Shown here: positions 8,768 through 61,485 of the stretch, piece by piece
Layout: each line of letters begins with the position of its first letter
Numbering within the stretch: the first letter of the stretch is position 1
Assembly (NCBI GenBank): GCA_030762935.1
Contig: CM060897.1
Location: 114,592,676-114,656,675, forward strand
DNA from: Hymenopus coronatus
Taxonomy: Eukaryota > Arthropoda > Insecta > Mantodea > Hymenopodidae
DNA length: 64,000 nucleotides
Direction of reading: 5' to 3'
Translations under genes and position numbers: made by a program
The notes under the pieces: generated by a model
Told to the model about the DNA's origin: nothing
What the model saw: the letters and a program-made list of their open reading frames with translations, nothing else
The model's database searches: none

Positions 8768-9640
8768 TTACTTTCTCTACACGTACCATGTACATAGTGT
8801 GTAGAAAAGTTATTGCACTCACCCAAAAATTTGATACCGAGATTTCACCGGAAATATATGTTTTAGGATCCCCTGTATCCGAAAAAAAGTATTTTCAGAA
8901 AAAGGTCCGTGTGTGTCCGTGTGTCAGTGTGTCTGTGAACACGATAACTCAAAAACGAAAAGTCGGTAAAATACCAAACTAGGTATTTCAGTTTAGTATC
9001 TTCCAGGGATGCGACACGAAGATTTTCAGAAAAAAAAAACCATCCCAAAGTACCCTTTACATGGGACTTTTTTCGAACATTTTGATTTTCTAAAAAATGG
9101 CTCTAACGATTTTTATTAAAATATCGTATATTAAAGATATTTAGCTGACAAACATAATGTATATTTTGAATTTTCTGGGAATAGCTTCTGAAGATTACTT
9201 TATTCTGAGAGTATATTACGGAATTTTGCATAACTGTTAAACCGTAAGATATGGACAAAAACTTACCCCACAAAAAATGTAGAGCACATTAAAACACACT
9301 ATTTATGTTGTATTCATTTTTTTCGTGGAGTTGCTCTTTTTGAGATATTCCTTGTTTTTGTTTTCAGGTTCGAAAAACTTAACTTTTCTCATACAGGAAT
9401 TTGTCAACTGCTGTCCTTACAAAGGAACTTCAGTCACAAAGCAAATAGTTTTTTAATAGCTTTAACCTATACTACTTCCTTATTTCCCTTCTACTTACAA
9501 ACAAGCAAGTAATAAGACTATTTCTGCTAATTTTTTGTCGATTATCATGAAGTAAATAGAAGCATGAGCTTTTTAAAACTAATTTGCCCCAGAGATGTAG
9601 AGAAAATCATGTGAATGGAACACATCAGTTTTTTTCTGAA
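8768..9640 (+). repeat. PH-family copy, near complete
   Basis: A good reference copy. It has the P end ACTTTCTCTACACGTACC with a partial palindrome, GATACCGAGATTTCACCGG, a GT-rich tract (8908-8935), AACTCAAAAACGAAAAGTC, the hairpin block AAATACCAAACTAGGTATTT, GGATGCGACACGAAGATTTT, GTATATTAAAGATATTTA, GGGAATAGCTTCTGAAG, ACCGTAAGATATGGACAAAA and the E end GATGTAGAGAAAATCATGTG with CACATCAG and a T run. Length is about 0.87 kb. No reading frame spans it. Confidence 0.9.
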
Positions 9641-10115
9641 TGGCTTTTGCATAACTGTAAACCCCAAGAGATAGACCTTTAACTAAAACAAAATCCTTAG
9701 CACAGCTAACTAACAGGTTTGGCCAAACGCTCGACCGCTGCGTCCACAACCTCGGTCCATTACAGACGTCATGGATGGGGTGCAATATTGGGGGGTGAGA
9801 CGTGGTCAGCGCTAATATGTTGGTACCTTTCTCAAAAGATATTGTCCCCTGTTTTTCTTTTGTTTACATGTTGTTATGTTAAGAGAACCGAATTTTAATG
9901 GCAATTAGTGACATTTTTTAAACGATTTGACCATCGCTTTAGTCTAGTGCAGTTCCTTAATTCTCTTCTACTTACATGACACTAAATAATAAGATCATTT
10001 TTGTTAATATTCATCTTGATTGGCATGAAGTAAATGGAAAAATAATCTTTTGTAGGAATAGTTTGTTTTCTGAACAAGTAGAGAAAGTAATGTGAATGGA
10101 GCACATCAACTTTTT
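9641..10115 (+). repeat. PH-family copy, P half missing, with insertion
   Basis: Starts with TTTTGCATAACTGTAAAC and AGAGATAGAC. It is interrupted by about 170 bp of unrelated sequence (9690-9840), resumes at GTTTTTCTTTTGTTTAC and ends at AGTAGAGAAAGTAATGTG/GGAGCACATCA. The 3' part uses the AATCTTTTGTA variant instead of AAGCTTTTTAACAATAA, so it belongs to the second subfamily. Confidence 0.7.
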
Positions 10116-11843
10116 ATGTTATGCAGATGTATTCAATCACAAAATACGGGTTTTTTCTAATGCTTTTTGACTTCACTGGGCGTCAAAAATATGTTTAGTT
10201 AAATCTTGATATGGGCTTTTATGGTGAAACACAATAATTCCGCTACTGAATATACTTAGTAGATAAAGCAAAGACATGTACAGTTATTTAAAGGATGTAA
10301 AGAAGCAATTATGTTTTTTTAACACAAATTAGGATTCCCGCTAATCATTTTCCATTAGAGAAAATTACTACAGGAAGCACATATGAGAAAATGTCCGTAA
10401 TACAAATTCAAGGAAGGGAATAGTGAACGAATCAGCGTTGCCAATCATATTTCATTCAATTTCTTTGAAAAATAAAACTTTTAATATTCCGCAAATTACT
10501 TTGACAGTGACAACCATAACTATAGATAACTTTGTTTCATAGAACTATATTTTTTAAGCCTTACCTTAATATATATTTGTCCCAGCAATTGCTCAGCAAT
10601 TCTGCATCGTCTGGTGACCCCATTATCGGAAACTTCTGCAGCAAGTTGTAAATTAAAGTCTCCAGCTTTATGCACACTATATTACATGTCACTTGAATGG
10701 TTATTAGAATTGTATTAAATGACATTTCCTACCACAACTCGTTGGAATACATTATTATTATTATTATTATTATTGTTGTTATTATTATTATTGTTATTAT
10801 TATTATTAGCATTTCTACAATTTTACATTTCTTTAAGTTCCTCAGTTCTTTATACTTTGTCATTGTTGGAATCGTTTCTCTTCCTCTTAAAACCGTACAT
10901 GGGCGGATTCATTTTCGAGATGTGACCTAGAGTGACAGACATGTTGTAGCAAGATGTGCCCATTACAGCTGTTTTCGAATGAAGTAAACTAGCTATTAAT
11001 TTGTCTATAATTTATTTATGTGTTTCGTTTTCATCAGATTTATGGACGAAATTTTTTTTCGAATGATTCACTTGCGTGTGGGGAACGCAATAATGACCTC
11101 ACAAAACGAGATATTAACGGGTAAAGTGAGTGCCTCTTCCATTTTTTCTAAGAGGACAATTATAGTTTTGTATACCGAGTGAGAACACAATTTCTGAGCA
11201 CAGGAAATATATCTACGACTTATTTACATATTTATTTGATTCTTTAACTTGTCAGATCTACAGCAGATGGCTCCGCTATTTTCTCTATGTGGGTTGTAAA
11301 ATACCACATCCTGATTATTATATCAATTTTTTACATCTAAAAATCCACCTTCGTAGTGATCGTAGCTTCTCTGCCTCCAGTTCGTGAGGTTCAGAGTTGG
11401 AATCTCGCTTAAGGTATTATCTGGAAGGGCCCTTTTTTTTCCGAAGTTTTCTCTTATCGTAAGAGTGCAAATATCGGGTAAATTTAGACCCTATCGATTC
11501 CGAGATCTTTTGATCATAATTCACTCAGCCGTCGTAAGATGTGACCTACCAAGCTAAATGACTTTGCTTTTTTGAATGGACTTTTCGACAAGCCTTATAC
11601 TTGAAAGATGTTTTAAAATATTACTAAGAACTGTGCAACAATGGTATAAAGAGTAATTTAAAATATCATATTAGAACTCTGTCTTTCACACCGTTTCTCT
11701 CTAAGTATTTCAACAGTACCCACAACTGTTTTCAATTTTACTGAAATTCAACTTCTGTCTTTTTTGGCATTCAACATTTTAATGTTAATGTGGGATAGTT
11801 CTGCTTGTCTATTCACATTCAATAGTTTGATAGTTCAATGTTT
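10116..11843. other. Unassigned AT-rich region
   Basis: No gene or recognised repeat except the TTA microsatellite at 10751-10808. No domain signature is seen in the short frames. Confidence 0.4.
10751..10808. repeat. (TTA)n microsatellite
   Basis: About 58 bp of ATT/TTA trinucleotide repeats with a few G interruptions. It produces poly-Ile or poly-Leu frames that are not genes. Confidence 0.95.
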
Positions 11844-11844
11844 T

Positions 11845-12682
11845 ACTTTCTCTAGCCCATATGTACAATGTATATCTATAGTGAATAGAGAAGGTATTGT
11901 ATTGCACCCAAAATCAAATATCGATATATCACCGGAAATACATGTTTTGAGAGCCCTCAATAAAAAGTATTTTTATAAACGTGTGTGTGTGCAGCATAGC
12001 TCAGAAACGAAAAGTCGGTTAACCGCCAAATTTGGTATTTAAGTTCAGTATCCTTCAAGGATGTGACATGAAGATTTCTAAGAAAGTCACCCCACTTTCA
12101 ACTACCCTTTATATGGATTTTTCTTTTTGATTTACTGGAAAATGGCTCAAACGATTTTGATTCAAATGATATATGTTTAAGATATTTCCATGAGATATGA
12201 TATCTTGAATTTTCTGGGAATGCATCTGAAGACCTCTTCATTCTGGATGACTTTTATATAACTGGCAAACCGTAAGAGATATATAAAAACTTACTATGCC
12301 AAAAATATGTATCTCATTAAAACACACATTTTTGGTAAAGTTAATTGTTTTCGAGATATTGAGAAATAATAGTTTAAATTTTATCCACTTAAACTTTTCT
12401 CAATCGGGAAGACGTCTTTCTTTCGTTCCTCGTTTGTTTACACCTGGCAATACAAGAGATAGGAATTGTGTCATATAGCGACCGACTTTCAAAGGAAAAG
12501 ACTAACGTTTTAATCTGTGCATTTTCTTATTCCTCTTCTACTTACAAGGAAGTTAGTAATAAGACTAATTCTGCTTAAGTTTATGTTTATTAGCAGATTT
12601 AGATAACTGATTAATCTTTCGAATAAAATGTTTGTTTACCGAATACTAAAGAACATGACATGAGTGGAACACATTACATTTG
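11845..12682 (+). repeat. PH-family copy, second subfamily
   Basis: The P end reads ACTTTCTCTAGCCCATATG instead of the ACTATGTACATAGT palindrome. The block CACCGGAAATACATGTTTTG, the GTGTGTGTGTG tract, AGTATCCTTCAAGGATGTG and the E end with CATGACATGAGTGG/AACACATT are all present. It also carries a TTTGTTTAC/CACCTGGCAATAC segment that differs from the main subfamily. Confidence 0.85.
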
Positions 12683-12689
12683 TGCCCCT

Positions 12690-12839
12690 GTACTACTTAC
12701 AAGGAAACAAGTAATAAAGGCAATTTCTACTAATGTTTTCTCGATTTTTCATGAAATAGATAGAAGAATAAGCTGTTTAACAATAATTTGATACAGAGAC
12801 ATAGAGAAAGTCATGTGAATGGAACACATCAGATTTTTA
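12690..12839 (+). repeat. PH-family E-end fragment
   Basis: Only the last 150 bp of the unit: TACTTACAAGGAAACAAGTA, the TTTAACAATAATTTG block, GACATAGAGAAAGTCATGTG and GGAACACATCAG. It lies directly downstream of the previous copy. Confidence 0.85.
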
Positions 12840-13309
12840 TTAATATAACATGACCATTATAATTAGGTTACACTTAGAATTATTTAAAAACCATGTTCTG
12901 TTAAACTAAACTGCTTAACCTAATGCACATAGGTTTGAGTACCGCTTAGGCACTACACCCTGTCTGTCCATTTGGTTTGTGATTATTCCATTTTCTGTGT
13001 TTTCTCTCTTGTTCTCTATGTCATTATTTTTCCATAGTCACTTTTCTTTTACCTTTCCCAAATATTTCTCTATTTATTTGATTTTTCTCTTTCACTTGAC
13101 GTTCAATCTTTTTAATGCTACCATCTCTCCTGGCATACTGTTTCATTTATCTTCCCAAAATTTGTTTTTGCAGTTTCTTACCTCTTTCCATTCAGTTAAA
13201 CTGTAAAGAATGGTCAAGAGAGCGATATGCATATGTATGTAATAAACAAGAGAGGGAAGCATTAGCGTATGAAAGGATAAGAGGCAATGAACTAGAACGA
13301 TGTATTTTA
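12840..13309. other. Unassigned region
   Basis: Pyrimidine-rich on the plus strand (12975-13200). Nothing recognised. Confidence 0.35.
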
Positions 13310-14024
13310 TGCGGGGAGAAACGAAAAATCGGTTAAATACCTAACTTGATTTTTACGTTTAATATCTTCAAGGAATGCGAACATTTTGAGTAAAATCTCT
13401 CAACCGTAAACTACGGAAGAAGAAAAAGACGTCGACAATTTTGATTTTCTATTAAATAGATTTAAAGATTTTGATTAAAATACCGTATATTAAAGATATT
13501 TACACGATAAATAAAACGTATATCTTGAATTTTTTGCGAATAGCCTCCGAATACCTCTTTATTCTGGATTTTTGATTTTTGATTTTCTATTAAATAACTA
13601 AAGATTTTGATTAAAATACCGTATATTAAAGATATTTACATGACAAATAAAACGTATAACTTGAATTTTCTGCGAATAGCCTCCGAATGCCTCTTTATTC
13701 TGGATTTTTGTTTTCTAAACTTTGCATAGCTAGTCAACAGTAAGAGATGGACACAAGTTTACTATGAAGCAAATGTAGATCTCATTAGAACACACACTTT
13801 ATGTCATATACATTTTTGTGAAGTTCACTATTTTAAATATATTCCTTATTATTGGTTTCAGTTTTAAAATACCAATTTTCTCGTAGGGAATATGTAAACT
13901 CCAGGCAATGCATAGAAATCGATTTCAATCATATGGCAACCAGCTTTAAAAATATTTGACTAACGCTTTAGCCCAGTTTTCTCCCTTATTTCCTTTTCTA
14001 TTTACAGGAAAGCAAGTAATAACA

Positions 14025-14041
14025 ACAATTTCTGTTAATGG
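14025..14041. repeat. Target-site duplication, left
   Basis: ACAATTTCTGTTAATGG is repeated exactly at 14399-14415. Together they bracket the SINE-T insertion. The sequence belongs to the host PH repeat. Confidence 0.95.
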
Positions 14042-14069: not shown

Positions 14070-14142
14070 TGGCATAGCCGTGATTTGAACCACGGATCTC
14101 CCGGTCTCTAGCCGGTTACTCTACCACTGAGCTATCATGGCA
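14070..14142 (-). other. tRNA-like domain of SINE-T
   Basis: 73 nt on the minus strand. It has acceptor-like ends TGCCAT/ATGGCA, an A-box-like AGCTCAGTGGTAGAG and a B box GGTTCAAATC. The anticodon-loop position would read CTAGAGA between short complementary arms. It lacks the long variable arm of a true Ser tRNA and has a mate in inverted orientation, so I treat it as a retroposon part and not a tRNA gene. Confidence 0.75.
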
Positions 14143-14269: not shown

Positions 14270-14342
14270 TGCCATGGCAGCTCAGTGGTAGAGTAACCGG
14301 CTAGAGACCGGGAAATCCGTGGTTCAAATCCTGGCTATGGCA
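14270..14342 (+). other. tRNA-like domain of SINE-T
   Basis: The same 73-nt tRNA-like domain on the plus strand, with AGCTCAGTGGTAGAG and GGTTCAAATCC. It is followed by the usual SINE-T 3' flank (CTACCTATCAAC, then TTTCTGTGAGAAAAA). Confidence 0.75.
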
Positions 14343-14398
14343 TTGCCTCTACCTATCAACTTATGTTCTGCACACGCTTTCTGTGAGAAAAAACTATC

Positions 14399-14415
14399 AC
14401 AATTTCTGTTAATGG
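14399..14415. repeat. Target-site duplication, right
   Basis: Exact second copy of the 17-bp sequence at 14025-14041. The PH-family sequence resumes immediately after it. Confidence 0.95.
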
Positions 14416-14516
14416 TTATCTTGACTAGCATGAAGTAGATAGAAAAGTATGCTTTTTAACAATACTTTGTTACTGAGATGTAGAGGAATTCATATGTATG
14501 AAATATATCAGATTTT

Positions 14517-15313
14517 TTCCTAGTTCACCAAATGTCCTGTTGAATTATGTGTATTGTGCTATTTCTCACTGACTTCCAGAATGTCTTTTCATTTTCTTGC
14601 CCCTTCCTCCATATGTCTGCATTTATCAACTCCTCTCGTTATTTACTAATAACCTGCTTTGAGAAGAACGAGTACAAGTAACGAGAGAGGGAAGTAATGT
14701 ACATCAGTTTGTATTTTTAAATGAAAAAGACAAAAGAGAACTGCAGCACTGTTAATTTTTATTATAACTGACTTTGACTTAAACAAACACAGTAACCACA
14801 CTTAATTAATTCCTTATTTACTTGTAGTTCTCAGAAAATACAAATGTGCATAGACTTTTACCAGATGCAGTTCCCAGTTTAGTTTCCCGTAAAGCTTCAC
14901 TACTTGTATGTATCACATTTCTTAACAATATTTATTTTGGCAACAAGAGAGTTTTTGTATTGACCGCCCACTATTTGTTGTGCTGGTTGCTTTTCTAATT
15001 AACGAGTATCGTTTGTTGCGTCTCTCAGCTCCCTTTGAGTGGCTTTTCCTGAGTAATTGCAATGTTCTTCATAAGATCTAAAGCAAAGGGAAACTAACAG
15101 AGGCTGTCAAACAGAATTCACAGAACTGTATCAGGCAGTCTAAACTGATATGTTATTAAGCTTCATGACACAAATAATTACCTTTGCACATTATACTAAA
15201 GTAAAGGGGTATGTGAATCTAGAAAAACACGTATACTCAATTGCAGAAATCATTAAGTCTAAAAATTAATATTTGATTTTCGAAGGCTTACTGATTGTTT
15301 CTCTTTATTTAGT
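14517..15313. other. Unassigned region
   Basis: No repeat or domain recognised. Pre-insertion host of the LINE at 15327. Confidence 0.35.
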
Positions 15314-17676: not shown

Positions 17677-18284
17677 GATTATTATTATTTTTTCCATTCC
17701 AGACGAAGTACCGCGATACGTGGCGTACTGGCACTTCAGAAACTTATACCCGTTACTTCGAAATTTCAATAAATAGACCATAAGTCTCCTATCTCAAATT
17801 ACTTATTTAAGTAATCTACATATTCTGTGAAAATATTTCGATATAATTCATTAACACCATGTATATATTGTCCTAGATTTCAACCACAAGTTTGTAGAGG
17901 GGTCCTAGATAACCAGTTTGAGATAGGGAACTTATTGCCCCTTTTGCCAAATGTCAAAGTTTTGACATGTTTTCTAGATGACAATTCAAATGAAGCAAAT
18001 TAAAAGAATGAGGACGTATGTGGCCTATTTTCATTCAGAATGTCTTATTTGTATGCCAGTAGTGGAAAGAATGCAGAGTTGGTGCACAATGAATACGGTA
18101 CAAAACGTGCTGGTTCTATGAGGGCCACTGTTAACAGTCTGCAGATTTCAAATCATATGTACTTAACTAGAGTGTTCGTTTTAACATGCTGGTGGGCGAG
18201 TCGGTAGAGCGTTGGTCAAAGATTCCATAATACAACGATTGCGCCGCTTTCTGAAGTTTACGTTATTTACTCTTTTAATTTTCT

Positions 18285-19262
18285 TATTTTTACTTTCATT
18301 ACATGTTCTATGCAGATAGCGTATATCAAAGATATTGCATTCCATCCAAAAATGCAATACCAAGAGTTCACCAGAAATAGACGTTTTAAGGTCTTCTGTA
18401 TCTAAAAAGGTACATATGGAAAAAAGTCCACGTGTGTGTGTGTGTGGTTTTTTTTTTTTTTGGTAGTGTTTAACGCCCACTTTAACTATTTATGGCACCG
18501 CAGGAGATGACACTGACGATACATGAATGATGATTGAGCCCCGATGGAATGCGATGGCGGGGGAAACCGGAGTACCCGGAGAAAACCCACCCAGCGCCGC
18601 TTTGTCCACCACAAATCTCACATGCGGTTGCTTGGGATCGAACCCCGGCCGTCTAGGTGAGAGGCAAGTGGTCTAACCTCTCGGCCACGGCGCGGCCCTG
18701 TGTGTGTGTGACTGTGAACAGGATAACTCAAAAACAAAAACTCGGTAAAATACCATATTTCGTATTTAAGTATACTATTTTCCGGGGATACGACACGAAG
18801 ATTTTGAGAAAAATCCGCCCACCCCAAACTACCCTTCACATGGACAAATTACGAAAATATTGATTTTCTCAAAATTGGCTGTAATGATTTTGATTAAAAC
18901 ACCATACATTAAAGATATTTATATTGCAAATAAAATGCATATGTTGAATTTTTTGGGAATAGCCTCTAAAAACCTCTTTATTCTGAATGAATTTTGCTGA
19001 ATTTTGCGTAACTGGTTAACCGTAAGAGATAGAAGAAAATCTTAGTACACAAAAATGTAGATCTCGTTAAAACACAGAATTTAAGTCCTATACATTTGTT
19101 TGTGCAGCTGAGCGTTTCTGAGATATTCCTTGTTATTTGTTTCAGATTTAAAATACTTATGTTTATCTCGATCATCGTAAAGTAGATAGTAGGCTAAGCT
19201 TTTTAACAGTAATTTGTTACAGCGATGTCGAGGAAGTCATGTGAATTGGAAAATCACATTTT
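18285..19262 (+). repeat. PH-family copy split by a SINE-L
   Basis: Starts with a poor P end (CATTACATGTTCTATGC). The GT tract is interrupted at 18447-18697 by a full SINE-L. It continues with GGATAACTCAAAAAC, GATACGACACGAAGATTTTG, ACCGTAAGAGATAGA and an E end reading GATGTCGAGGAAGTCATGTG. An internal deletion removes the CAACTCC-to-TACTTACAAGG part of the 3' region. Confidence 0.85.
18447..18697 (-). mobile_element. SINE-L, complete copy
   Basis: On the minus strand the head GGCCGCGCCGTGGCCGAGAG plus GGTTAG and a GGGGTTCGATCCC B box resemble a tRNA-Leu. The body contains TTTGTGGTGGACAAAGCGGC, TTTTCTCCGGGTACTCCGG, CATCGCATTCCATCGG and GGGCGTTAAACACTACC, ending in about 14 A residues. The element is about 251 bp. 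It sits inside a GT run, so TGTGTGTGTG flanks both sides and the exact target duplication cannot be separated from the microsatellite. Confidence 0.9.
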
Positions 19263-20593
19263 GTTCTCAAAGAGATTCACAATCAGAGCAGCACCAATAT
19301 GCTTAGTTTACATTTCTGAAGCCAAAACGATAAAGCCTTCAGATTACTTTCAAAAGACTGTGAACGGTGTTTATGTAGCGCTCATATTAAACATAGTAAT
19401 TGTCAAGGAACCTGCGTAGACTAATGCAACAGATCAATTAGATATGTTGAAAACATTTATGTAATATGTGCTGTGAAACGTAGCAACTATGATTTTAGCG
19501 GTGGAATAAAAAACCTGGGCTATTGCTGGTATCAGAGGTATTTAGATTTTATCTGTAATTAGCAGGAAGAGGCATTTCCTGAGCTGCTTCTTCAACTTTA
19601 GTGCACACGGACTGTTTTTTTTTTTTTTTTTTTTTTTTTTTTTGGATTGTGTTAACGCCCGCTTTTACTGCTCTGGTACCGCAGGCGAGCGCGGACTGCG
19701 GCTCACGACACGACGAGAATGACGTAGTCATGTATAAGTATATGTTAAACTGCTGATGAGCATCTAATTAAACATTATAGTAAAGATGCAGTGCAGACAT
19801 TAAATTGTACATTGAAGTACGGAAACGGGAAAATAAAATAAAAATTTAACAATATGTGACACATTGAATTTTTTATGCTATTTATAAAATTCCATACAGA
19901 AACAATATTTCTTTATCCATTGCAAAGTGTGACCATGTTCATTTTTAATTTTTTAAAACAAAAAATTTTCGGTTAGGGGTGAAACACGATTTACACTCCG
20001 AAAATGTTCTCTCCACGTCACAAGATGCAGTGGGATCTGTTCTTTACATTTTGTAGGTTACATTTGCTTTGCTGATATCACACAATGTTGAATATTCTGG
20101 GTTTTTCTCAAGCACATTATCTCACTGAAACAGCTACTCTATTGGTAACTTGAGAAATATTCGTCGCAAATTCCTGTATATGATGAATGGCGTCCGGCAG
20201 TTCTAGTTTCCTAGATTCCAAAGTAGTAATTGAGGTAAGCATTTGTAATTATTCTGAACAGTTGTTAAGTCTTGGAACTTCGAGTCGAATTTTGTGCTTC
20301 GTTCATGAAAATCCATAATTTATTATCTGCTACGGTTTCTCGTACATAAACTAACACGTCCTCATAGTACGTAGATAGGTATATAAGGCGTGTACTTTTG
20401 GAAGGTAGTTTACGGCCTACATATTTCTCAATAAATGCAACGAATGTGTGATTTTTGTAGCTTATGTAAAGGACGCCATCACTTTACACAATTCTTTACA
20501 AAATGTCTTTTGTCTGCCTAGTAGTGTGTTTGAACTGGATGGCAGATCAGCTTTCGCTTTAGTTTCCATTAATTATATATTTTATTTATGTTT
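19263..20593. other. Unassigned region with one SINE-L 3' end
   Basis: Apart from the poly-T-headed SINE fragment at 19614-19700 I see nothing recognisable. Confidence 0.4.
19614..19700 (-). mobile_element. SINE-L 3' fragment with poly-A tail
   Basis: A T run of about 29 (19615-19643) on the plus strand is followed by GTGTTAACGCCCGCTTTTAC and TACCGCAGGCG, the complement of the SINE-L 3' end. It breaks off before the conserved CCGGTTTCCCC block, so this is a strongly 5'-truncated insertion with an unusually long tail. Confidence 0.8.
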
Positions 20594-49645: not shown

Positions 49646-49647
49646 AA

Positions 49648-50525: not shown

Positions 50526-50526
50526 T

Positions 50527-51341
50527 GTGATGTGCTCCAGTCACATGACTTTCTCTAAATGGCTGTAACAATTATTGATAAAAGCACTTTGTTCTCTCGT
50601 ACTTTATGACAATCGAGATAAACATTAGCAGAAATTGTCTTACTTACTTGCTTCCTTATAAGTACTTGGAAAATAAGCGAATACACTTGGCTAAAAAGTC
50701 AAATCTTAAAAGCCAGTTGCTAGGTGGTTGAAATCCATTTCTATGCAGGACCATTAGTTTACAACTATCCGTGTGAGGAAAGTTAAGTATTTTACATCCG
50801 AAACAGACAACAAGGAATATCTCAGAAATGGTGAATTCAACAAAAACATATATGACATAAATTGCGTGTTTTAACGTGATCTACGTTTTTTGTGAAGAAG
50901 GTTTTTGTCTATCTCTTAAGGTTTACTCGTTACGCCAAATTCAGCAAAATTCATTCAGCATTAAGGGGTTTTTATAGACTATTCCCAGTAAATTCAATAT
51001 GTACATTTTATTTGCCATATAAGCATATTTAATATACAGCATTTTAAATAAAATTGTTACAGCCATTTTTAGAAAATAAAAACTTTGAATTTTTTTCCAT
51101 GTAAATGGTACTTGTCGCATCCCTGGAAAATATTAAACTTACATACCAAGTTTGGTATTTTACCTTGTTTCTTATTCTGAGTTATGGCCTACACAGTCAC
51201 ACGGACACACATGGACCTTTTTCTGAATACAGGAGATCCTAAAATTTGTTTTTCCTTTGAAATCTCGGTATATAATTTTTGGGTGGAATGCTATACCTTC
51301 TCTATACACCTTGTACATAGTACGTGTAGGAAAAGTAAAAA
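50527..51341 (-). repeat. PH-family copy (array unit 6)
   Basis: E end ATGTGCTCCAGTCACATGAC, TTTAACGTGATCTACG, ATACCAAGTTTGGTATTTTA hairpin, short CA tract, CTTTGAAATCTCGGTATA and P end CACCTTGTACATAGTACGTG. Last unit of the array. Confidence 0.88.
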
Positions 51342-53095
51342 AAGAAACGTGTTTTCTGTATTTTCTAATGTTAAGGGTGAATTTTACATTTTGTACTGAA
51401 TAACAACTTTCCTACCTGTTTTTTTTTTTTTTTTATTTTTGTATTTATTTTTTTTTTTTTTTTTGCGTTTTATTTATTATAATTTTCATGGAGTTAGTCG
51501 TTATATTTGAACAGTGAAAAAAGACAGCTTTTTTTCTCTATCACTATGTGTGAAACGTATGTCACAATTTTCCAATTATACAGCAGACGAGTACAGCTTC
51601 GCGGAGCATACATTGTCGTTTATTTATGTTGCCAGTGACGGATGGATACATGGTGGAATTATAAAAGGTGAGGGACAAGGCAGCTTGTTTTCGTTCTGTT
51701 TGCGCAGTGATGTCATGTTGCTTGATACTTACGAGAACAAGGCTAGGGGATTGCTGACGATAGCGAGCACAATAATAACACAGTTGTAAAGCGAAGTCTG
51801 AATACTTTTTTCTACAAAATAACTATTATTACAGACATTAGGAAGCACAAACAATAATGTTTACCCTAAGCAAAGAGATCACTAACTTTGCACTGTAAAC
51901 AGATCTAGACGCAATCTAAGATACTTTTCCTTTGAAGTAATACAACAATTTATTCATACAAAACATTACAGACAGCAGCAAAATTATAACAACAGGAATA
52001 TTTATGAAGTAGAATAACACTACAAACAATCTGAATACAGTACATTTTTAATACACATGACACCGCAGGCAATGACACTGATGATACATGGAATAAAGAG
52101 AGAGCACCGGTGGAATGTGATGGCGGGGGAGCTCGATAGCCCGGAGAAAACACATCCTGCGCCACTTTGTCCACCATAAATCCCTTATGCGGTCACCTGA
52201 GATCGAACCCGGGGCACCTTGGTCTAACCACTCGGCCACAACGCGGCCTTACATTAAAAATAATATAGTTTCCTGCAAAATAAATGATAACGTTGTATTT
52301 GAATTGCCACGTTTTTCACGTGCTTCTAAATTTCAATAAGGCCAAAAATGCTAAACATAGTAGTGCTATTATTTATTAAATACCTGCATAACTTTTATTT
52401 CAGTTCTCTGCTGTTAGCTATGTGATCGCTTAAACGCGGGAAATGTCGATTTAATGCCTATGAACCTAAATTCCTTTAAAAGTATGATTAAAATGCGAAA
52501 ATATGCGTGCATTAATGTGAACAAACAATCAAGAGAGACAGAAAGCGGAATGGTGGCACATTCATTCAGCGTTTTTAAGAACTTAAAAGTTAGAAAACAA
52601 GGTTAGTTTAACGTCGTAATTTCTTCTTTTTATTTTTCCTCCGAGTGTCGGAACTTTCTTTTATACAAATTGTTCCACGCAATGCAGTTATCTATACATG
52701 TGATTTTTTATCTGTGTTATTAAACTAGCAATATTACACAAAATCAGATCATGCTTTGTTAATAAGCTTAGCTGTGAATAAACTATATAATAATATGAAT
52801 GCAGTGTTAATATTTAAGCTGAAAATTGAAAAATGTATTAAGCAATTTATCCCCAACTATTTAGTGGGCTAATTAAACATTGAACTATTTAGTTTGACCA
52901 TATACTATTCAAGAGTAAAATTATAACATATTAATGTTTTAAAAATATAATTGAATGTATGAGGCACTTTTAAAACAGTAAAAGATATTAAAAAATGAAG
53001 TATCCTGGGAAGCAATTTGAACAGATGTTTGCTATTTGATATGCATTAAACCCCTAAATGCTTTATTAAGAGAATCATCAATCCGAAATAAAAAA
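51342..53095. other. Unassigned with one SINE-L
   Basis: T-rich low-complexity at 51419-51464. A 91-codon plus frame at 51514-51789 has no motif I know. Otherwise only the SINE-L at 52060-52252. Confidence 0.4.
52060..52252 (-). mobile_element. SINE-L copy, 3' end missing
   Basis: Minus strand: GGCCGCGTTGTGGCCGAGTG head with GGTTAGACC, CCCGGGTTCGATCTC B box, ATTTATGGTGGACAAAGTGG and TGTTTTCTCCGGGCTATCG. The end breaks off at GCCTGCGGTGTCATGTG, before the poly-A. TACATT occurs at both borders but is too short and A/T-rich to call a duplication. Confidence 0.85.
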
Positions 53096-53918
53096 AAAAT
53101 CTGATGTGTTCCATTCACATGACTTTCTCTACATCTCTGTAAAATATTACTTTTAATAAGCTTATTCTTCCATCCACTTCATGCTAATCGAGATAAACAT
53201 TAGCAGCAACGGTATTATTACTTAGCTCCTTATAAGTAGAAGAGAAATAAGGGAATATACTAGGCTAAGCCGGCAGTCACATGTTTTTAAATGTGGTACC
53301 TATGGGATTGAAATCCGTTTCTGAAACCAGTAACAAGGAATATCTCGAAAGAGGAAAAGACTACTCTGGGGGGAAAAGAATGTATATGACATAAATTATA
53401 CATTTTAAGGAGCTTTACATTTTTTGTGTAGTAAGTTTGTGTTTGCCTCTTAAGGTTACTAAGGATGCAAAATTCAGAAAAAAAAATATCTGGAATAAAG
53501 AGGTCTCTAGAGGCAACTCCTAGAAAACTCAAGATATACATTTTATTTGCCCTATAAATATCTTAAACATAAGAGATTTTAATCAAAATATTAGAGCCGG
53601 TTTTGAAAAAATCAAAATGTTCGAATTTTTTTTTTCCATGTAAAGGCCAGTTGGGATGGGGGGGGGATTTTCTTGAAAACCGTCTTATTGCAACTTTGGG
53701 AGGTACTGAAATATCAAGTTTAGTATTAAAGGGACTTTTCGTTTTTGAGCTATGCTACCCACAGACACAGACATACACACAGACCTTTTTCTAAAAATGC
53801 TTTTTCTGGATTCAGTGGGTCCTAAAACATGTATTTCCGATGAAATCTCGGTATCGAATTTTTTGGTGCAATACAATACCTTCTATGTGCACAGTACGTG
53901 TAGAGACAGTAAAAATAC
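53096..53918 (-). repeat. PH-family copy, near complete
   Basis: Excellent E end (CTGATGTGTTCCATTCACAT, GACTTTCTCTACATCTCTG), TTTAAGGAGCTTTACATTTT, GGCAACTCCTAGAAAAC, a (G)8 run at 53660-53667, the GACACAGACATACACAC tract and TTTCCGATGAAATCTCGG. The P end is reduced to GTGCACAGTACGTG. Confidence 0.88.
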
Positions 53919-53997
53919 AATTTTATTTTCATTTATTTGCATTTTACAAAAATGTGGATACTCGGGTGTTTGTTTCATTGAAATATCACTACATCTT

Positions 53998-54085
53998 CAC
54001 ACGTAAAATGTACATAGTCTATAGAGAAGGTTTTGGATTGCACCAAAAATGTTACACCGGAAATACATGTTTTGAGACCCTGAAT
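53998..54085 (+). repeat. PH-family P-end fragment
   Basis: GTACATAGTCTATAGAGAAG followed by ACACCGGAAATACATGTTTT. It stops at the E end of the next, minus copy. Confidence 0.8.
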
Positions 54086-54086
54086 A

Positions 54087-54755
54087 AAAAATCTGATGTG
54101 GTTCAGTCACAAGACTTTCTCTACATCTCTGCAACAGCTTATTGTTAAAAAGCTAATGTTTCCATTTACTTAATGCTAATCGAGAAACAATTAGCAGAAA
54201 AAATCTTATTACTTGCTTTCTTGTAAGTACATAGATGCGAAATAAGCGAGTACCATAGGTTAAAGTGATAGTCAAAAGCTGGTTGCAATGTGAATGAAGT
54301 TCCTTTATTTGTATGGACAGGAGTTGACAAATTCCTGTATGAGAAAATTATAAGTATTTCAAAGTTGAAACCAAAAATGAATAATTCGACGAAAAAAGTT
54401 ATATATCATAAAGTGAGTGCTTTAATCAAAATTGTTAGAGCTATTTTTGAGAAAATAAAATGTTGCGAAATAATTCCATGTAAACGGTAGTTGGGTTTGG
54501 GAGAATTTTTTTGAAAATGCTTACAAGATACCAAACTCAAATACCAAGTTTGGTATTTAACGGTGTTTTCGTTTTTGATCTATGCTTTCCACAGACACAC
54601 ACGCGCACACCATTCCGACCTTTTTTCAGAAAAGCTTTTTTTAGATTCAGGGGGACCCAAAACATCTATTTCCGGTGAAATCTCGCTACCGAATTTTTCG
54701 GTGCATTATAATACCTTTCTATACACTACGTTCATAGTACATGTAAAAAAGTGTA
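54087..54755 (-). repeat. PH-family copy, internal deletion
   Basis: E end CTGATGTGGTTCAGTCACAA. A deletion joins AGTGCTTTAATC to AAAATTGTTAGAGC. ATACCAAGTTTGGTATTTAA hairpin, CACACACGCGCACACC tract and P end CTACGTTCATAGTACATG. Confidence 0.85.
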
Positions 54756-55105
54756 TATTAAATAAAGTATGTGTTTTAATGAGTCATATATTTTTGTGTA
54801 GTGAATGGTTTATCAGTTATGCAAACTTCAGTAAAAATTAATCCAGAATCAAAAGGTCTTTACAGACTATTCCCATTAAATCCAATATATACATTTTTTA
54901 TTGTTCTATCATTTTTATTTGTCATGTGAATATATTTAATATACGATATTAAAATCATTGATCTATTTTGAGAATATTAAAACTTTAGAAAAATTCTTCC
55001 TTTGAATACGGTAGTTGGTGGTTGGAGGATTTTTTATGAAAATCTTCTTTCACATCCTTGGAAGATACTGATCTTGAATGACAAGTTTAGTGCTTAGAAA
55101 AATCT
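54756..55105 (-). repeat. PH-family centre fragment
   Basis: TATGTGTTTTAATGAGTCA through TTTATCAGTTATGCAAACTT, GACTATTCCCATTAAATCC and TTGGAAGATACTGATC. Both ends are missing. Confidence 0.75.
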
Positions 55106-55734: not shown

Positions 55735-56160
55735 AGCCTGAAATATTCAATGTCATAGCCGGGATTTGAATCACGGATTTCCCAGTCTCTACCACTGAGC
55801 TAACATAGCAGCAACATGTCGGCACAGCATCATACTCTTCAAGTGACTTGCATGTTTCGCGGTAAACCACAAGGTGATCTAAAATTATTTTAAGATGACT
55901 TACCCAATGGCGACTTAAAAGTCATAGTACTTCAGGTCCATAAACTATTATGTTAAAATGTTTTTTTAATTGTTGTTTCACACAAGCAGTGTGTATAACA
56001 GGAGTTGGATTCGTAGAGTCATATTGCCATGGTACCTCAGTGGTAGAGCAATCGGCTACAGAAGTGGTAATCTGTTGTTCAAATCCCGGAAATGGCACTG
56101 AAGTATTCAGTCTGGCTCTACTTAGCTGTCCTACACACGCGTGTGTGAAAAAAATATTAA
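55735..56160. mobile_element. SINE-T, inverted form
   Basis: A minus tRNA-like domain (about 55755-55822; GGGATTTGAATCACGGATTT, ACCACTGAGCTAACATAGC) with a deletion in the anticodon region is followed by the body hairpin CTAAAATTATTTTAAG. A segment TTTCACACAAGCAGTGTG and a plus tRNA-like domain (about 56026-56097; GCCATGGTACCTCAGTGGTA, GTTCAAATCCCGG) come next. It ends in ACACGCGTGTGTGAAAAAAA. Same inverted architecture as 14042-14398 but longer and more decayed. Confidence 0.8.
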
Positions 56161-56163
56161 ATA

Positions 56164-57023
56164 AAAATCTAATGTGTTCCATTCTCTACATCTCTGCAAC
56201 AAATTATTATTAAAAAGCTTATGCTTCTATTCACTTCATGCTAATCAAAGAAAAAAAATAGCAGAAATAGCCTTATTACTTGATTCCATGTAAGTAGAAA
56301 CGAAATAAGAGAGTATCATAGGTTAAAGTGATAGTCAAAAGCTGGTTGCTATGTGACTGAAGTTCCTTTGCATGGACAGGAGTGGACAAATTTCTATATG
56401 AGAAAAGTATGTTTTTCAAAGCTGAAACCAAAAAACAAAGAATAATACAAAAACGATCAATTCCACGAAAAAAATGCATATAACATAAATTGTGTGTTTT
56501 AATGTGCTCTATATATGTTGTATAGTATATTTTTTCCACCTCAGTTTAGTAATTATGCAAAATTCTGTAAAATACATTTAGATTAAAGTAATCTTCAGAG
56601 CATATTCCCAGAAAATTCAAGATATACGTTTTATATGTCAGGTAAATATCTTTAATAATTGACATTTTAATCAAAATCGTTAGAGCCATTTTTAAGAAAA
56701 TCAAAGTTTTCGAAAAATGTTCCGTCAAAGGGGAGTTGGGTGCGGGGGGATTTTCTTGAAAATCTTCGTGTCGCATCCTTGGAAGATATCAAACTTAAAT
56801 ACCAAGTTGCCAAGTTGCCCACAGACACACGGACACTCACACAAACACACACACATATACACATACGGCCCTTTTTATAAAATTGTTTTTTTTTTTTTTT
56901 TTTTTTTGGATTCAGGGGGATCCAAAACATGTATTTCCGGGAAATGTCGGTATCGAATTTTTGGTGCATTACAATACCTTCTCTATACACTATGTACATA
57001 GTACGTATAGAGAAAGTAAAAAT
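56164..57023 (-). repeat. PH-family copy, complete
   Basis: E end ATGTGTTCCATTCTCTACAT (deletion of the CACATGAC part), TTTAATGTGCTCTATAT, GGGGATTTTCTTGAAAATC, a CA tract with CACACACACATATACACATA, a T22 run, TTTCCGGGAAATGTCGG and the full P palindrome ACTATGTACATAGT at 56990-57003. It abuts SINE-T on the left. Confidence 0.9.
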
Positions 57024-57318
57024 TTACTGTTAGACACTAAAGAACGCGTATTTCCGGTAAATGGGGCGGTAAATGATGCCTGAATATGAAACATTTGAGA
57101 ATATCCACTGTGTTGCTTTTCTATCCTCTGGTCGGCGTAGTTGAAAAGTTGCGAGGCAGTTCGCTTCGACATTTCCTGCATATGAAAAATCCAATATAAA
57201 AGTTGAGAAATACTACATCCGAAATTTATTGCGACGAAAGTAAAGGATTTTAAAGGGATTCGCTCATTTGAAAGCCAATAATTCATATGTTTATCCCTAT
57301 GTTTTAACGCATTAAATT
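57024..57318. other. Unassigned
   Basis: Nothing recognised. Confidence 0.3.
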
Positions 57319-57618
57319 TTACTTTAACTGCACGTACTTTTTACATAGTGTATAGAAAAGGTATTGCACTGTATCTAAAAATTCAATATCGAAGTTTCAG
57401 CAGAAATATATGTTTTAGGGTCCCTTGTATCTAAAAAAATTGTATTTTTAGAAAAAGGTCCTTGCGAGGGATGCGACACGAAGATTTTGAGAAAAGTCCC
57501 CCCCCCCCAAACTACCGTTTACATGGAAAACGTTTCGAAAATTCTGATGTTCTGAAAAATGGCTCTAACAATTTTGATTAAAATACCGTATATTAAAGAT
57601 ATTTTTATGACAAATAAA

Positions 57619-57657
<39 letters not shown>

Positions 57658-58068
57658 CCTGGGAATAGCCTCTAAAGACCCCTTTATTCAGAAATAATTT
57701 TGCTGAATTTTGCGTAACTGGTAAATTGCAAAATATAGACACGATTTTTTCGTGGAATGGGCCATTTCTGAGACATTCCTTGTAATTTGTTTAAGGTTTA
57801 AAATACTTAAACTTTTCTTACACGGAAAGTTGTAACCTCCCGCATATAAACGGATTTCAACCACATGGCAACCAGCGTTCAAGAGATTTGTCATTCATTT
57901 TAGCATAGTGTATTCCCTTATTGTCCTACTTACAAAGAAGCAAGGAATTAAAACAATTTCTGCTAACGTTTATCTCAATTATCATAAATTAGAAGAGCAT
58001 GAATTTTAACAATACTTTGTTACAGCGATGTAGAGAAAGTCATGTGAATGGAACATATCAGATTTTTA
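57319..58068 (+). repeat. PH-family copy, GT tract deleted
   Basis: P end with TACTTTTTACATAGTGTATA. A deletion joins AGAAAAAGGTCC directly to GAGGGATGCGACACG, removing the GT tract and the hairpin. (AT)n at 57622-57653, ACTGGTAAATTGC and the E end GATGTAGAGAAAGTCATGTG with GGAACATATCAG complete it. Confidence 0.88.
57622..57653. repeat. (AT)n microsatellite
   Basis: About 32 bp at the AATGTATATCTTG position of the PH unit, equivalent to the tract at 36245-36281. Confidence 0.9.
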
Positions 58069-58836
58069 CATTCTCCAGTGCATACCAGCTCGCTTAAAAG
58101 CACCATATTTCACGTTTGTAGATAAACTTTCGAGCAGAAGTTGCAGAACTCCACGGGCTAATTCCAATCATACGCCTGTCAGTGCGGTTGTAAGAGAGAG
58201 AGGGCTACCTTCCTTCATTTCTTGCATATTAACGTAAACTGTGAAGGAATCGGACGACATCACTACATGCTGACGTGGAGCATTGCATAGCGTCTTTTAG
58301 TATTACATTACTATAGTCTTATAATAAAAGTTCTCTTCTCTCAATTACAGCAATTACTAAAACTTCTGCAAATAAGCAATGTACGGGATTAACGGCTTTG
58401 CTTCCCTTCCGAAGGAAACCATGCTACAGATTTTTACTTATTTTTACTGGCTCTCCACTTTACAGCAATTTGCCCTTAATTCTTACTTTCAAGACATTCT
58501 TCTCATCCACTTATCCATCTTTCATACCGTTCGTCCTCATGGCCCCATGCTTCTCTCATACCATGTTCTTTTGGTTCTTCCCCGCTTTGTGCTGGCACCA
58601 TTCAATTTAACCCTTAAATGCATGAATTATTTTGCTATATGTGCCGTTCTTCCTCTAATTCGCGAACCGGCAGTTATATCCCTTTCACCGGCACCACAAC
58701 TGAAGAGACTTTAATAGCCGTGATCGTTAGTGCGACACCAAGAGTTCTGTTCATCCATTCAAAGCCAAACGTCGCTTGGAAGTTAACGGGGTTACATTTT
58801 ACTGCAGTTACATGGAGTTTGCTTTTTAAAATATTT
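58069..58836. other. Unassigned
   Basis: A 111-codon plus frame (58379-58714) is pyrimidine-rich and has no recognised domain. TTTACTGGCTCTCCACTTTA (58445) is echoed at about 59897 (TTTACAGGCTCTCCACTTAA) in an otherwise different context. Confidence 0.35.
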
Positions 58837-59673
58837 GATATGTTCCATTCACATAACTTTCTCTAAATCTCTGCAATGAATTATTCTTAAAAAAAATTAT
58901 TCTACTATTTACTTAATGCTAATCGAGAAAAAAATAAGCAGAAAGGGCCATGTTACTTGCTTTCTAATAAGTAGACTGGAAAAGGGAGTGATATAGGCTA
59001 AAGCGATAGGCAAATCTTTAAAATATGGTTGCTATGTGATTGAAGATTCTTTGTTTCTATGGACAGGCGTTCATAGATTCCCGTATGTGAAAAGTTTTAA
59101 GTATTCTAAAGCTGAAACCAATAACAAAGAATATCTAAAAATTGTCAATTCCACGAAAAAATGTATATGACAAATTGTGTGTTTCAACAAAATCTACATA
59201 TTATATGTAATGCGTTTTTGTCTATCTCTTATGATTTACTAAATATGCATACTTCAACAAAATTCATCCAGAATAAAGAGGTCTTCAGAGGATATTCTTA
59301 GAAAATTCAAGATGTACATTTTATTTACGTGTAAGTATCCTTAATATAGGGCATATTTATCGAAATAGAGCCATTTTGAGATTATAAAAATTTTCGAAAA
59401 TATTTCCATGTAAAGGGTAGTTGGGGTGGGAGGATTCGTATCGCATCCTTGGAAGATACTATATTTAAATACCAAGTTTGGTATTTAACGGACTTTTTGT
59501 TTTTGAGCTACGCCGCCCACACACACGCACACACACATTTTCTAAAAATGCTTTTTTGGATAAAGATGGTCATAAAGCACTATTTCCAGTGAAATATCGG
59601 TATCGAATTTTTGGGTGCATTACAATACCTTCTCTATATACCTTGCACATATAACGAGTAGAAAAAATAGAAA
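58837..59673 (-). repeat. PH-family copy, near complete
   Basis: E end ATGTTCCATTCACATAACTT, CAACAAAATCTACAT, AAATACCAAGTTTGGTATTT hairpin (20 nt, perfect 9-bp arms) at about 59468-59487, the ACACACACGCACACACAC tract, TTTCCAGTGAAATATCGG and P end TATACCTTGCACATATAAC. Confidence 0.9.
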
Positions 59674-60055
59674 AAGACTACAAATCTTTATACCTTTACA
59701 ACATAAAGCAGCTATAATTAGCATCATTTTATTGTTGAAAGTTAGTGTAATAAGTAATTAGAAAAAAAAAGTGCATTGGAAATTCTAAACACTTTGATTA
59801 ATCATGTTTGCTCAGATATGCAACACTATGCAATTAAGGGTTTAGACTGTTGAGCCATCGCTCCTCTGACATCTGTTGTATAAGCCCATACTACTTTTAC
59901 TTTTACAGGCTCTCCACTTAACAGCAATATTCCCTTGATCCTGCCTTCCAGAGACTCCTATCAAGTTTGTTGCATATATGCAACACCAAGCAATTAAGGT
60001 TAAGATTCTTTTCGACCACCACTCCTCCGAAATCCGTTGTACATGCCCATACTAC
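59674..60055. repeat. Degenerate direct repeat
   Basis: The segment from ATATGCAACACTATGCAATT to CCCATACTACTTTT (about 59815-59901) recurs, diverged, at about 59974-60060 (ATATGCAACACCAAGCAATT ... CCCATACTACTTTT), spaced about 159 bp. Its nature is unknown; it adjoins the LINE relic. Confidence 0.65.
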
Positions 60056-60640
60056 TTTTTGATATCCCAACCATTTATTGACTAAGTGTATCCAACATGC
60101 AGCAATCTGGATATTCTTATATCTACTTTTATGAGTCCATCCATTTCTATCACCAAAACTATTTTTGGAATTCTATGGTTTATTGTCCAGCTTTTGGACC
60201 CATTAGAAGTATATCTTATGTTATAGTTTGCAAACTTTTCGCTTTGTGCTTCTGATCAAATTCTTATTTCACAGAATACTGTTCAGGGATCTAATCACCT
60301 TACTACCTTGCACAATTCCCTCGATTGATAACATGTTTTTCACAGGTACCAGATTTATCAATTAAGAACCAAGATCGTTAAATACCTCAACAGATTTAAA
60401 CACCACATCATTTTTAGTATATTTTTTGAACTTCCTGCAATTACTATATACTCTGTTTAAATAACATTTATTTTTAATCCACATACTTCAAGTACAACTA
60501 CTTATTTCTGATCATCTATTTTGTAACGTCTTCATCCTGTCCTATTATGACCTGATAATCAGCAAATAACAAAGTGTGCAATTAACGACCATTGATATTG
60601 AGTCCCTACCCCTGTCTGCCTTATTTCACTTTGTCAATAC
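60056..60640 (-). pseudogene. LINE reverse transcriptase relic (motif C to C-terminus)
   Basis: Minus-strand translation, with several stops, gives LFADYQVIIGQDED, where the FADD active-site box of a LINE reverse transcriptase has mutated to FADY (60555-60566). It is followed by LEVCGLKIN and, downstream, EVFNDLGS and IVQGSKVIRSLNSIL with NKNLIRSTKRKVCK. These blocks correspond to the region after the catalytic Asp pair up to the tail seen in animal LINEs (pattern shape: KYLG ... GR/SKxIxxLNSIL ... KxxIYK). Clade cannot be fixed by eye. It is a different element from the 22008 family. Confidence 0.78.
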
Positions 60641-60649
60641 ATCTTAAAA

Positions 60650-61485
60650 ATCTCATTGTTCCATTCACATAACTTTCTTTATATCTCTGCATTAAACTAT
60701 TGTTAAAAAGATTATGCTTCTCTTTGCTTCATGCTAATCTTTTCTCGATTAGCAGCTTAGTCTCATTACTTGCTTCCTTGTAAGCAGAAGCAAAATAAGG
60801 GAGTACCATAGGTTAAAGTGATAGTCAAAAGGTGGTTGCTATGTGACTGAAGTTCCTTTGTTTCTATGGACAGGAGTTGACAAATTTCCGTATGAGAAAA
60901 GTAGATATTTTTTAAAGCTGAAACTAAAAACAAGAAATGTCTCAAAAAAGAAAAAAAGGTACACAATATAATGTGTGTGTGTTCTAATGAGCTCTATATT
61001 TTCTGTCAAGTAAATTTTTATCTGTCTCATACGGTTTGCCAGTTATACAAAATTCCGTAAAATTCATCCAGAATAAAGTAGTCTTCAGAAGCTATTCCCA
61101 GAAAATTCAAGATATACATTTTATTTGTGATGCTTTAATAAGTGGTATTTTAATCAATATCGTTAGAGCCATTTTTAAGAAAAAACAAACCAATTTTTCG
61201 ACAATTTTTCCATGTAAAGTATAGTTAGGGGTGGAGGGATTTAATTGAAAATCTTCGTGTCGCATCCTTGAAAGATATTTGGTATTTAGCCGGCTTTTCG
61301 TTTTTGAGCTATCTTGTCCACAGATATACATACACGCGCAGACAGACACACATACGGACCTTTTTCTAAAAATGCTTCTTGCCGGACTCAGGATGCATAA
61401 AATATTTCGGGTGAAATCTCGGTATCGGTATTTTGAGTATACATTTACTAAATTTGTTGTACATGCGGGCTAGAGAAAGTAAAAA
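60650..61485 (-). repeat. PH-family copy, near complete
   Basis: E end ATTGTTCCATTCACATAACT, CTAATGAGCTCTATATTTT, TTCGTGTCGCATCCTTG, ACACGCGCAGACAGACACAC tract and GGTGAAATCTCGGTATCGG. It has a second-subfamily P end (GTACATGCGGGCTAGAGAAA). It also has an inverted repeat near its E end: AGCATGAAG...-side TGCTAATC next to CTCGATTAGCA. Confidence 0.85.

Follow-up and report, generated by a model that had tools for sequence, protein, structure and literature searches.

Non-autonomous Helentrons (HINEs) have been described from several animals, and these elements are the closest comparison for a repeat family that occupies much of a 64,000-bp stretch of the genome of the mantis Hymenopus coronatus (GenBank assembly GCA_030762935.1, contig CM060897.1, positions 114,592,676-114,656,675 of the forward strand; hereafter, the window). 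As Thomas et al. 2014 (PMC4067079) describe them, HINEs of the mite Metaseiulus occidentalis have a near-terminal 5′ palindromic repeat, a 3′ subterminal repeat and a 3′ palindrome, leave their T-rich target unchanged, and have ends in common with a partner that encodes Rep, helicase and endonuclease. Drosophila DINE-1/INE-1, in the account of Yang & Barbash 2008 (PMC2374699), has 13-bp subterminal repeats, a partial inverted repeat beside the 5′ one, a GTCY tract, a TT target, no open reading frame and a very high copy number. The Pacific oyster Cg_HINE is reported to combine a 5′ repeat, an inverted repeat and a GTCY-type tract with a 3′ repeat and palindrome, and to enter TT sites without duplication (PMC7492417). 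The mantis repeat is like all three in these respects. Its structure, the lack of coding constraint, its insertion into T-runs without duplication, and the presence of Helentrons with the same ends in the same genome make it almost certainly a non-autonomous Helentron, a HINE family of the DINE-1 kind. The family belongs to a known type; what sets it apart is its extent and the HINE-like leader that its partners carry.

The mantis repeat also differs from each described system. The M. occidentalis HINEs are presented as plain deletion products of their partner, to which they are 84-99.9% identical (PMC4067079), whereas here the leaders of the sampled Helentrons are 73-87% identical to the HINE consensus and several partners are led by a whole HINE-like module. 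DINE-1 is described with species-specific central tandem repeats (PMC2374699) and the oyster HINEs with satellite-like central arrays (PMC7492417); the mantis repeat has no such array but a conserved core of ∼450 bp of unique sequence. Helraiser and the canonical Helitrons (PMC4778049) have the same rolling-circle logic and a bypassable 3′ hairpin terminator, which is experimental there and assumed here. Unlike the mantis repeat, they are described with TC/CTAG ends, an A-T target and no endonuclease domain.

We matched a repeat profile built from 20 genome copies against both strands of the window. The 62 matches lie on both strands and cover 28,175 of 64,000 bp (44.0%), in agreement with an initial annotation, made from the letters alone, that put the repeat at more than 40% of the window. 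A consensus blastn search covered 38.7% of the window in 69 pieces, and the reversed (not complemented) window, used as a control, gave 0 profile matches. By hand count, near full-length matches (starting at profile position 20 or earlier and ending at 885 or later) number 15 among the 62; 29 matches reach the 5′ end of the family (position ≤20) and 32 the 3′ end (≥890). The four copies first used as references (8768-9640, 20594-21484, 49648-50525 and 56164-57023) are all members of this one family. About 40 copies or fragments on both strands, spanning 8768-61485, had been proposed. Both strands are indeed used, but the matches number 62, several of them possibly pieces of one interrupted copy, and the family extends from 378 to 63843.

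The consensus of the 20 genome copies is 875 bp long, starts with TTTACTTTCTCTATACGTACTATGTACATAGTGTATAGAGAAGG and ends with GATGTAGAGAAAGTCATGTGAATGGAACACATCAGATTTTT. The 5′ terminus, ACTTTCTCTA(C/T)A, lies inside a longer palindrome, and the first 60 nt fold into a long hairpin (−20.4 kcal/mol). This hairpin is followed by a GT/GTCC/GTCT (GTCY) tract, the ∼450-bp core of unique sequence, and a 3′ subterminal repeat, TGTAGAGAAAGT, which is the inverted 5′ 12-mer and stands 27 nt from the 3′ end. The final 27 nt hold ATGTG-AATGGAA-CACAT, with a 5-bp stem and a 7-nt loop. In the reference copy at 8763-9638 (+), the palindrome occupies 8770-8810, its first 12 nt (8770-8781) being the 5′ terminal repeat; the GT/GTCY microsatellite tract lies at 8905-8937, and the 3′ subterminal repeat and then the hairpin (9609-9625) at 9594-9628. 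The order of parts is as the initial annotation described it. Its 5′ 12-mer has a C, as several copies do, and this variant pairs with the 3′ repeat at 12/12 positions; the consensus has T there and pairs at 11/12. Searches over open-access PMC papers, and in no repeat library, found nothing relevant on this 12-mer and no paper describing the family.

The same annotation saw no conserved coding frame, and the 39 best-scoring genome copies that we fetched bear this out. The two longest consensus frames contain an in-frame stop in 22/39 and 23/39 copies, and 25/39 copies carry a frame-shifting deletion in them (length not divisible by three). Substitutions are spread about equally over codon positions (233/210/217 and 226/224/238). 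The family thus has the hallmarks of HINEs as set out by Thomas et al. 2014 (PMC4067079) and Yang & Barbash 2008 (PMC2374699), namely 11-15 bp inverted repeats, terminal at the 5′ end and subterminal at the 3′ end, a 5′ palindrome, a 3′ stem-loop, a GTCY microsatellite and no coding capacity. Its ends, TTTTACTTT...CAGATTTTT, lie in T-runs, as opposed to the TC 5′ end, CTRR 3′ end and A-T target of a canonical Helitron. Nor does it match a cut-and-paste miniature inverted-repeat transposable element (MITE), given its asymmetric ends and the lack of a target duplication.

The mantis repeat inserts between Ts without target duplication, although the split of the Ts between element and target is ambiguous. 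Of the 39 fetched copies, 35 have both ends. Exactly five Ts precede ACTTT in 24/35 of them, T-trimmed flanking duplications of ≥3 nt number 0 against 0.44 expected, and flanking duplications are at chance level at all lengths tested. A direct comparison comes from the Helentron HA, whose coding body is interrupted by a HINE copy on the opposite strand. Read along the HINE, the filled site is GATTTTTT|ACTTTCTC...CAGATTTTTT|GAAAATTC, and its empty counterparts in uninterrupted Helentrons are GATTTTTTTGAGAATTC (HB) and GATTTTTTTGAAAATTC (HC), so that the HINE went into a T-run without duplication. The family also nests within itself at T-runs, at 41539-42382 in the window and at locus L022. A comparison of filled and empty sites had been suggested at the outset, with a LINE-type or cut-and-paste-type target duplication as the outcome that would overturn the Helentron assignment. 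At one filled and two empty sites, and among the 35 copies, insertion into a T-run is seen and such a duplication is not.

These observations bear on two other classes of element. A MITE derived from a Tc1/mariner, hAT or similar cut-and-paste DNA transposon, and mobilized by a DDE transposase, would have short inverted repeats, a high copy number and no coding, as here. DINE-1 itself was formerly called a MITE family (PMC2374699), and the published H. coronatus annotation names Tc1 as the largest transposable element component (PMC12908712), a label under which this family may have been placed. With no target duplication, a terminal 5′ but subterminal 3′ repeat, and the same ends on Helentrons, however, we regard a MITE as highly improbable. 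A short interspersed element (SINE) or other retroposed element could account for the T-rich target, and the terminal T-run can be read as a tail. Yet both ends of the copies are equally defined, there is no duplication, and the ends are in common with a Rep-helicase element. No Rfam match lies inside the family either, and the tRNA at 14271-14342 reaches only into the low end of a single weak HINE match. Retroposition therefore has next to no probability.

The initial annotation also reasoned that an unseen partner must mobilize the repeat, and the genome contains candidates of the expected kind. In a search of 3,126,739,099 bp on 384 contigs, the Pfam family Helitron_like_N (PF14214) gave 112 matches at E≤0.001. 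Among 20 weaker matches that we fetched, nine contain a Helentron-type Rep motif (YYQRVEFQMRGSPHEHMFFW and variants). Most of these motifs read VEFQMRGSPHEHMFFW (RGSPHEH, with S between G and P) and have Y/F-x-R before VE; the RGSPHEH type is given as diagnostic of Helentrons by Thomas et al. 2014 (PMC4067079). Four Helentrons fetched as longer stretches share 74-91% pairwise identity across several kb, and UvrD_C_2 is among the domains in their open pieces. A first look with one 600-bp stretch gave 446 candidate Helentron copies in the genome. At locus L099 there are a PIF1 helicase (PF05970, E 2.9e-26), an endonuclease (Exo_endo_phos_2, PF14529, E 1.7e-8) downstream of the helicase, and DUF6570 upstream of Rep. 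The helicase and endonuclease sit in separate open pieces; their fusion in one frame was not seen because the L099 frames are broken. The 618-aa helicase piece has 377 protein relatives, of which the best are 43-60% identical and are helicases, several with the PF14529 endonuclease; those that bear species names come chiefly from arthropods (ants, a wasp, a spider). Helentron copies with Rep, PIF1 helicase, endonuclease and the same ends are thus present in the same genome, and the Helentron/DINE-1 layout first offered as an inference is supported by the hallmarks, the T-T insertion and this partner with common ends.

Canonical Helitrons (TC...CTRR ends, A-T target) are present in this genome as well, and the repeat might have been one of their families. 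The canonical Helitron motif appears in at least 19 of the 30 top-scoring loci for Helitron_like_N (L048-L077). However, the repeat ends and T-T target described above are not of that type, and the elements that share its ends carry a Rep motif of Helentron type together with an endonuclease, so a canonical Helitron family is highly improbable. Several further features of the searched loci were observed. Many of the 112 matches lie on the largest contig, C21 (545,668,161 bp), probably the X chromosome. At L101 (C21:299414500-299424499), retroelement pol-like frames of 733 and 284 aa adjoin the Helentron. On the leader side of the Helentron at L098, an open frame (554-1135) has a weak match, below the cut-off, to a herpesvirus tegument protease (E 0.0044) and may be the cysteine protease present in some Helentrons.

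The ends of the Helentrons connect them to the repeat. Homology between HA and HB ends at ...TAGAGAAAGTTATGTGAATGGAACACATCAGATTTTT in HA and its counterpart in HB, and the last 39 nt match the HINE consensus at 37/39 (HA) and 33/39 (HB) positions. The ∼100 nt just upstream of this common 3′ end show much lower likeness between HINE and HA or HB. The family 5′ end opens the leader at HB (1366), HD (1989), L111 and L112; HB measures ∼8.87 kb from end to end. Judged by their last 60 nt (below), the partners whose 3′ ends were seen, HA and HB, are elements of the same kind as the HINE but of another subfamily.

Several results weigh against the HINE assignment or against these particular Helentrons as the source of mobility. 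Both family ends occur together at HB only, with the 3′ end alone at HA and the 5′ end alone at HD, L111 and L112; the 3′ end of HC is missing, and the leaders of L107 and L110 show no clear element boundary. Over the last 60 nt, the match to the HINE consensus falls to 42/60 (HA) and 39/60 (HB). Thomas et al. 2014 (PMC4067079) used 80% identity for one subfamily, these values lie below that mark and the leaders are only 73-87% identical, so that no immediate driver of the young copies was identified. None of the 30 best Helitron_like_N loci carries the Helentron Rep motif; these loci were taken to be canonical Helitrons, and the Helentrons were found among the weaker matches. The frames are interrupted in each of the four long Helentron stretches, and no intact autonomous copy was seen. 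Finally, the ten open Helentron pieces scanned contain no RPA domain, though no specific RPA search was made.

Several Helentrons are headed by more than a shared tip. The leader is a whole HINE-like module at HB, L111 and L112, and in part at L109. At HB it matches consensus positions 1-868 at 81.3%, and the L111 and L112 leaders match profile positions 14-886 and 13-888. The internal 3′ end of the leader is decayed, with the hairpin partly kept and the terminal CAGATTTTT lost. It is followed by a linker common to the loci (AAGACGATGAAAAG in 3/4, AAGACAACAAAAAA in HB), then by the coding body and a second 3′ end, which a bold reading of the sequence would take as the working one. HINE positions 720-830 are 72-73% identical to the internal module of HB and L111 over ∼150 nt and 66% identical to that of L112 and L109, but only 56-59% identical to the true 3′ region of the Helentron; the final nucleotides of the HINE, even so, are those of the true end. 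The HINE is therefore not a simple fusion of the first and last pieces of a Helentron. A second Helentron group comprises HC, L107 and L110, with leaders that match positions ∼1-620 and look partly doubled. At L109 (C13:136961700-136962900), a ∼550-bp (CA)n run stands in place of most of the HINE-like leader.

In a tree of 67 copies and modules, the Helentron modules make two groups that lie near old HINE branches, apart from the young group. As support for where one of these two groups attaches is 0.28 and the root is arbitrary, the tree leaves undecided whether the module or the HINE came first. Bypass of the 3′ hairpin terminator has been demonstrated experimentally for Helraiser (PMC4778049). 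We conjecture, tentatively and with more doubt than confidence, that Helentrons and HINEs may interconvert via the terminator: read-through past a HINE 3′ end would produce a composite element with an acquired coding body, whereas a stop at the first end would yield a HINE. Together with self-targeting at T-rich ends, such a cycle might have brought the family to ∼1 million copies and close to a third of the 3.1-Gb genome.

Self-targeting is suggested by the arrangement of the copies. A head-to-tail junction with another copy is present in 12 of the 39 genome copies; head-to-head contact at the tips was seen in none. Four head-to-tail joints lie in the window. One is at 1020, where the 5′ end of the piece at 857-1020 (−, profile positions 19-178, E 9.8e-25) meets the 3′ end of the copy at 1011-1819 (−, 38-900); another joins the 5′ end of the near full-length copy at 33432-34308 (−) to the 3′ end of the copy at 34302-35059 (−, 117-892, E 1e-89). 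The others join the 5′ part at 48760-49351 (−) to the 3′ part at 49344-49651 (−), and the 5′ end of the near full-length reference copy at 49647-50524 (−) to the near full-length copy at 50520-51346 (−, E 3.5e-155). The same arrangement could arise in one step, since tandem products of rolling-circle replication are known (PMC7492417), and adjacent maize and bat Helitrons have given rise to the same debate (PMC2267711). In five of the 12 pairs, the partners are indeed 0.027-0.071 more alike than independence predicts, mostly over short overlaps. In the other seven, partner identity is within 0.011 of the prediction from independent divergence from the consensus, and the partners differ in age in 12/12 pairs, with the qualification that the fetched copies are the best scoring and hence biased to the younger partner of a pair. 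A one-step tandem origin of these pairs is accordingly improbable, and their sequences for the most part fit serial insertion better, with later copies entering the T-rich ends of earlier ones.

Whether the family prefers its own ends as targets depends on how many targets those ends provide. In the window, 61 family ends compare with 618 runs of ≥5 T or A (10%). The excess of own ends as targets (12/39) has P = 0.0007 if 11% of T-runs are family ends and P = 0.07 if 20% are. As P varies this widely with the assumed share, a preference stays suggestive.

The abundance of the family extends well beyond the window. A core 24-mer with ≤2 mismatches occurs 379,082 times in the genome and a 3′ 28-mer 302,611 times (controls 0 for both). 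The probes were calibrated on the window (11 core and 7 3′ occurrences) and on the sequences flanking the 39 copies, 46.8 kb in all (6 and 10), which are 29.7% HINE; the flank sample adjoins family copies and is non-random, and the calibrations are rough and from small samples. The core probe gives 31% (window) and 28% (flanks) of the genome, the 3′-end probe 39% and 13.5%, and pooled calibrations 30% and 24%. The family thus seems to make up very roughly 24-39% of the 3.1-Gb genome, with single calibrations ranging over 13.5-39%. Scaled by the window copies that each probe detects (11/35 core, 7/32 3′), ∼1.2-1.4 million copies hold the probed parts, or, as a rough figure, about a million copies overall. 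The published H. coronatus genome comprises 3,127,590,514 bp in 20+X chromosomes, with a scaffold N50 of 159,059,693 and X the largest (PMC12908712). As its annotation is reported there, Tc1-IS630-Pogo is the largest transposable element component and Helitrons appear only in general terms, so the HINE family may be partly mislabelled or unclassified. That ranking of Tc1-IS630-Pogo agrees poorly with a single HINE family at about a quarter of the genome or more. The house fly, in which all Helitrons are put at 28% of the genome, offers a precedent for a large rolling-circle share (PMC6327564).

The remaining copies in the window are given here by their profile matches. Near full-length copies on the plus strand lie at 8763-9638 (profile positions 16-897, E 4.7e-281), 11838-12686 (3e-118), 20590-21489 (another of the original references, 5.2e-217), 23953-24849 (3.8e-165), 29651-30540 (2.9e-112) and 37509-38379 (3e-246). 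The nested copy at 41539-42382 (+), also near full length, interrupts at a T-run a HINE whose 5′ part is at 41414-41544 (+) and which continues at 42378-43116 (+). Near full-length copies on the minus strand lie at 35791-36679 (1.2e-168), 53087-53920 (1.2e-155), 56159-57027 (the last of the references, 1.2e-212), 58827-59675 (2.5e-170) and 60641-61491 (2.1e-189), and the copy at 28802-29643 (−, 5.7e-64) covers profile positions 35-901. A plus-strand match at 56975-57018 (8.9e-4) is to the 5′ palindrome of the copy at 56159-57027 and is no separate copy.

Less complete matches include 5′ halves at 25513-25928 (+, 5.2e-115), 25916-26282 (−, 3.3e-65), 26980-27488 (+, 4.3e-57), 31285-31718 (+, 7e-43) and 48144-48640 (−, 1e-130), a 5′ part at 54421-54748 (−, 1.3e-66), and 5′ pieces at 18284-18445 (+, 9.9e-29), 23774-23947 (−, 1.5e-17), 43752-43991 (−, 7.6e-38), 48669-48767 (−, 6.3e-10) and 57312-57466 (+, 7.4e-33). 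Similarly, 3′ parts are found at 31707-32295 (−, 4.3e-108), 54078-54425 (−, 2e-80) and 57744-58075 (+, 1.1e-52), and 3′ pieces at 3075-3243 (+, 5e-15), 9926-10120 (+, 1.1e-26), 12689-12841 (+, 2.8e-32), 14279-14523 (+, 5.5e-21), 19162-19268 (+, 1.9e-15), 27921-28199 (+, 1.2e-24), 38400-38616 (−, 1.4e-20) and 47852-48145 (−, 3e-71). The match at 14279-14523 is probably over-extended, because its low end overlaps the tRNA match. Other pieces lie on the plus strand at 7275-7429 (8.8e-17), 7765-7968 (4e-14), 8117-8254 (2.2e-8), 8633-8766 (1.3e-10), 13319-13567 (3.9e-47), 13575-14041 (9.4e-78), 18696-19159 (9.1e-113), 32309-32494 (2e-10), 43115-43786 (2.9e-140), 57465-57742 (4.2e-62), 63300-63490 (5e-9) and 63596-63843 (2.6e-14), and on the minus strand at 378-847 (profile positions 433-871, 2.3e-49), 39499-39603 (4.9e-7), 39512-39949 (7.1e-30) and 54745-55092 (2e-40).

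Outside the repeat, a scan of the window for a Helentron body found none, and ten window frames compared with Pfam gave no family above the cut-off. A 235-aa open frame at 21978-22685 (+) gives the impression of a retrotransposon-like cysteine/histidine tail; it matches no Pfam family, and a homologue search at E≤0.001 found none. The only Rfam matches in the window are two tRNAs, at 14070-14141 and 14271-14342. The second, at 14270-14343 (+) as a tRNA-Ser with anticodon aga, may be a gene or a tRNA-derived repeat; the first (−) is weaker and 130 bp off.

By analogy with Helraiser and other rolling-circle elements, we propose that a Helentron Rep would nick the 5′ end of the HINE, after which a helicase would peel off one strand. 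The 3′ hairpin would act as the stop signal, and the single strand would be joined between two Ts of a T-run. Copies may have built up in this way in several waves, with the family's own T-rich ends among the targets, until they made up, very roughly, between a quarter and two fifths of the genome. If our estimate holds, one non-coding rolling-circle family would constitute ∼0.75-1.2 Gb (24-39%) of the H. coronatus genome. The 28% of the house-fly genome corresponds to several-fold less DNA. Many nested and abutting copies, together with decayed Helentron partners, lie in a single chromosome-scale assembly, which makes it possible to test directly how Helentrons choose their targets and terminate and how non-autonomous families originate.

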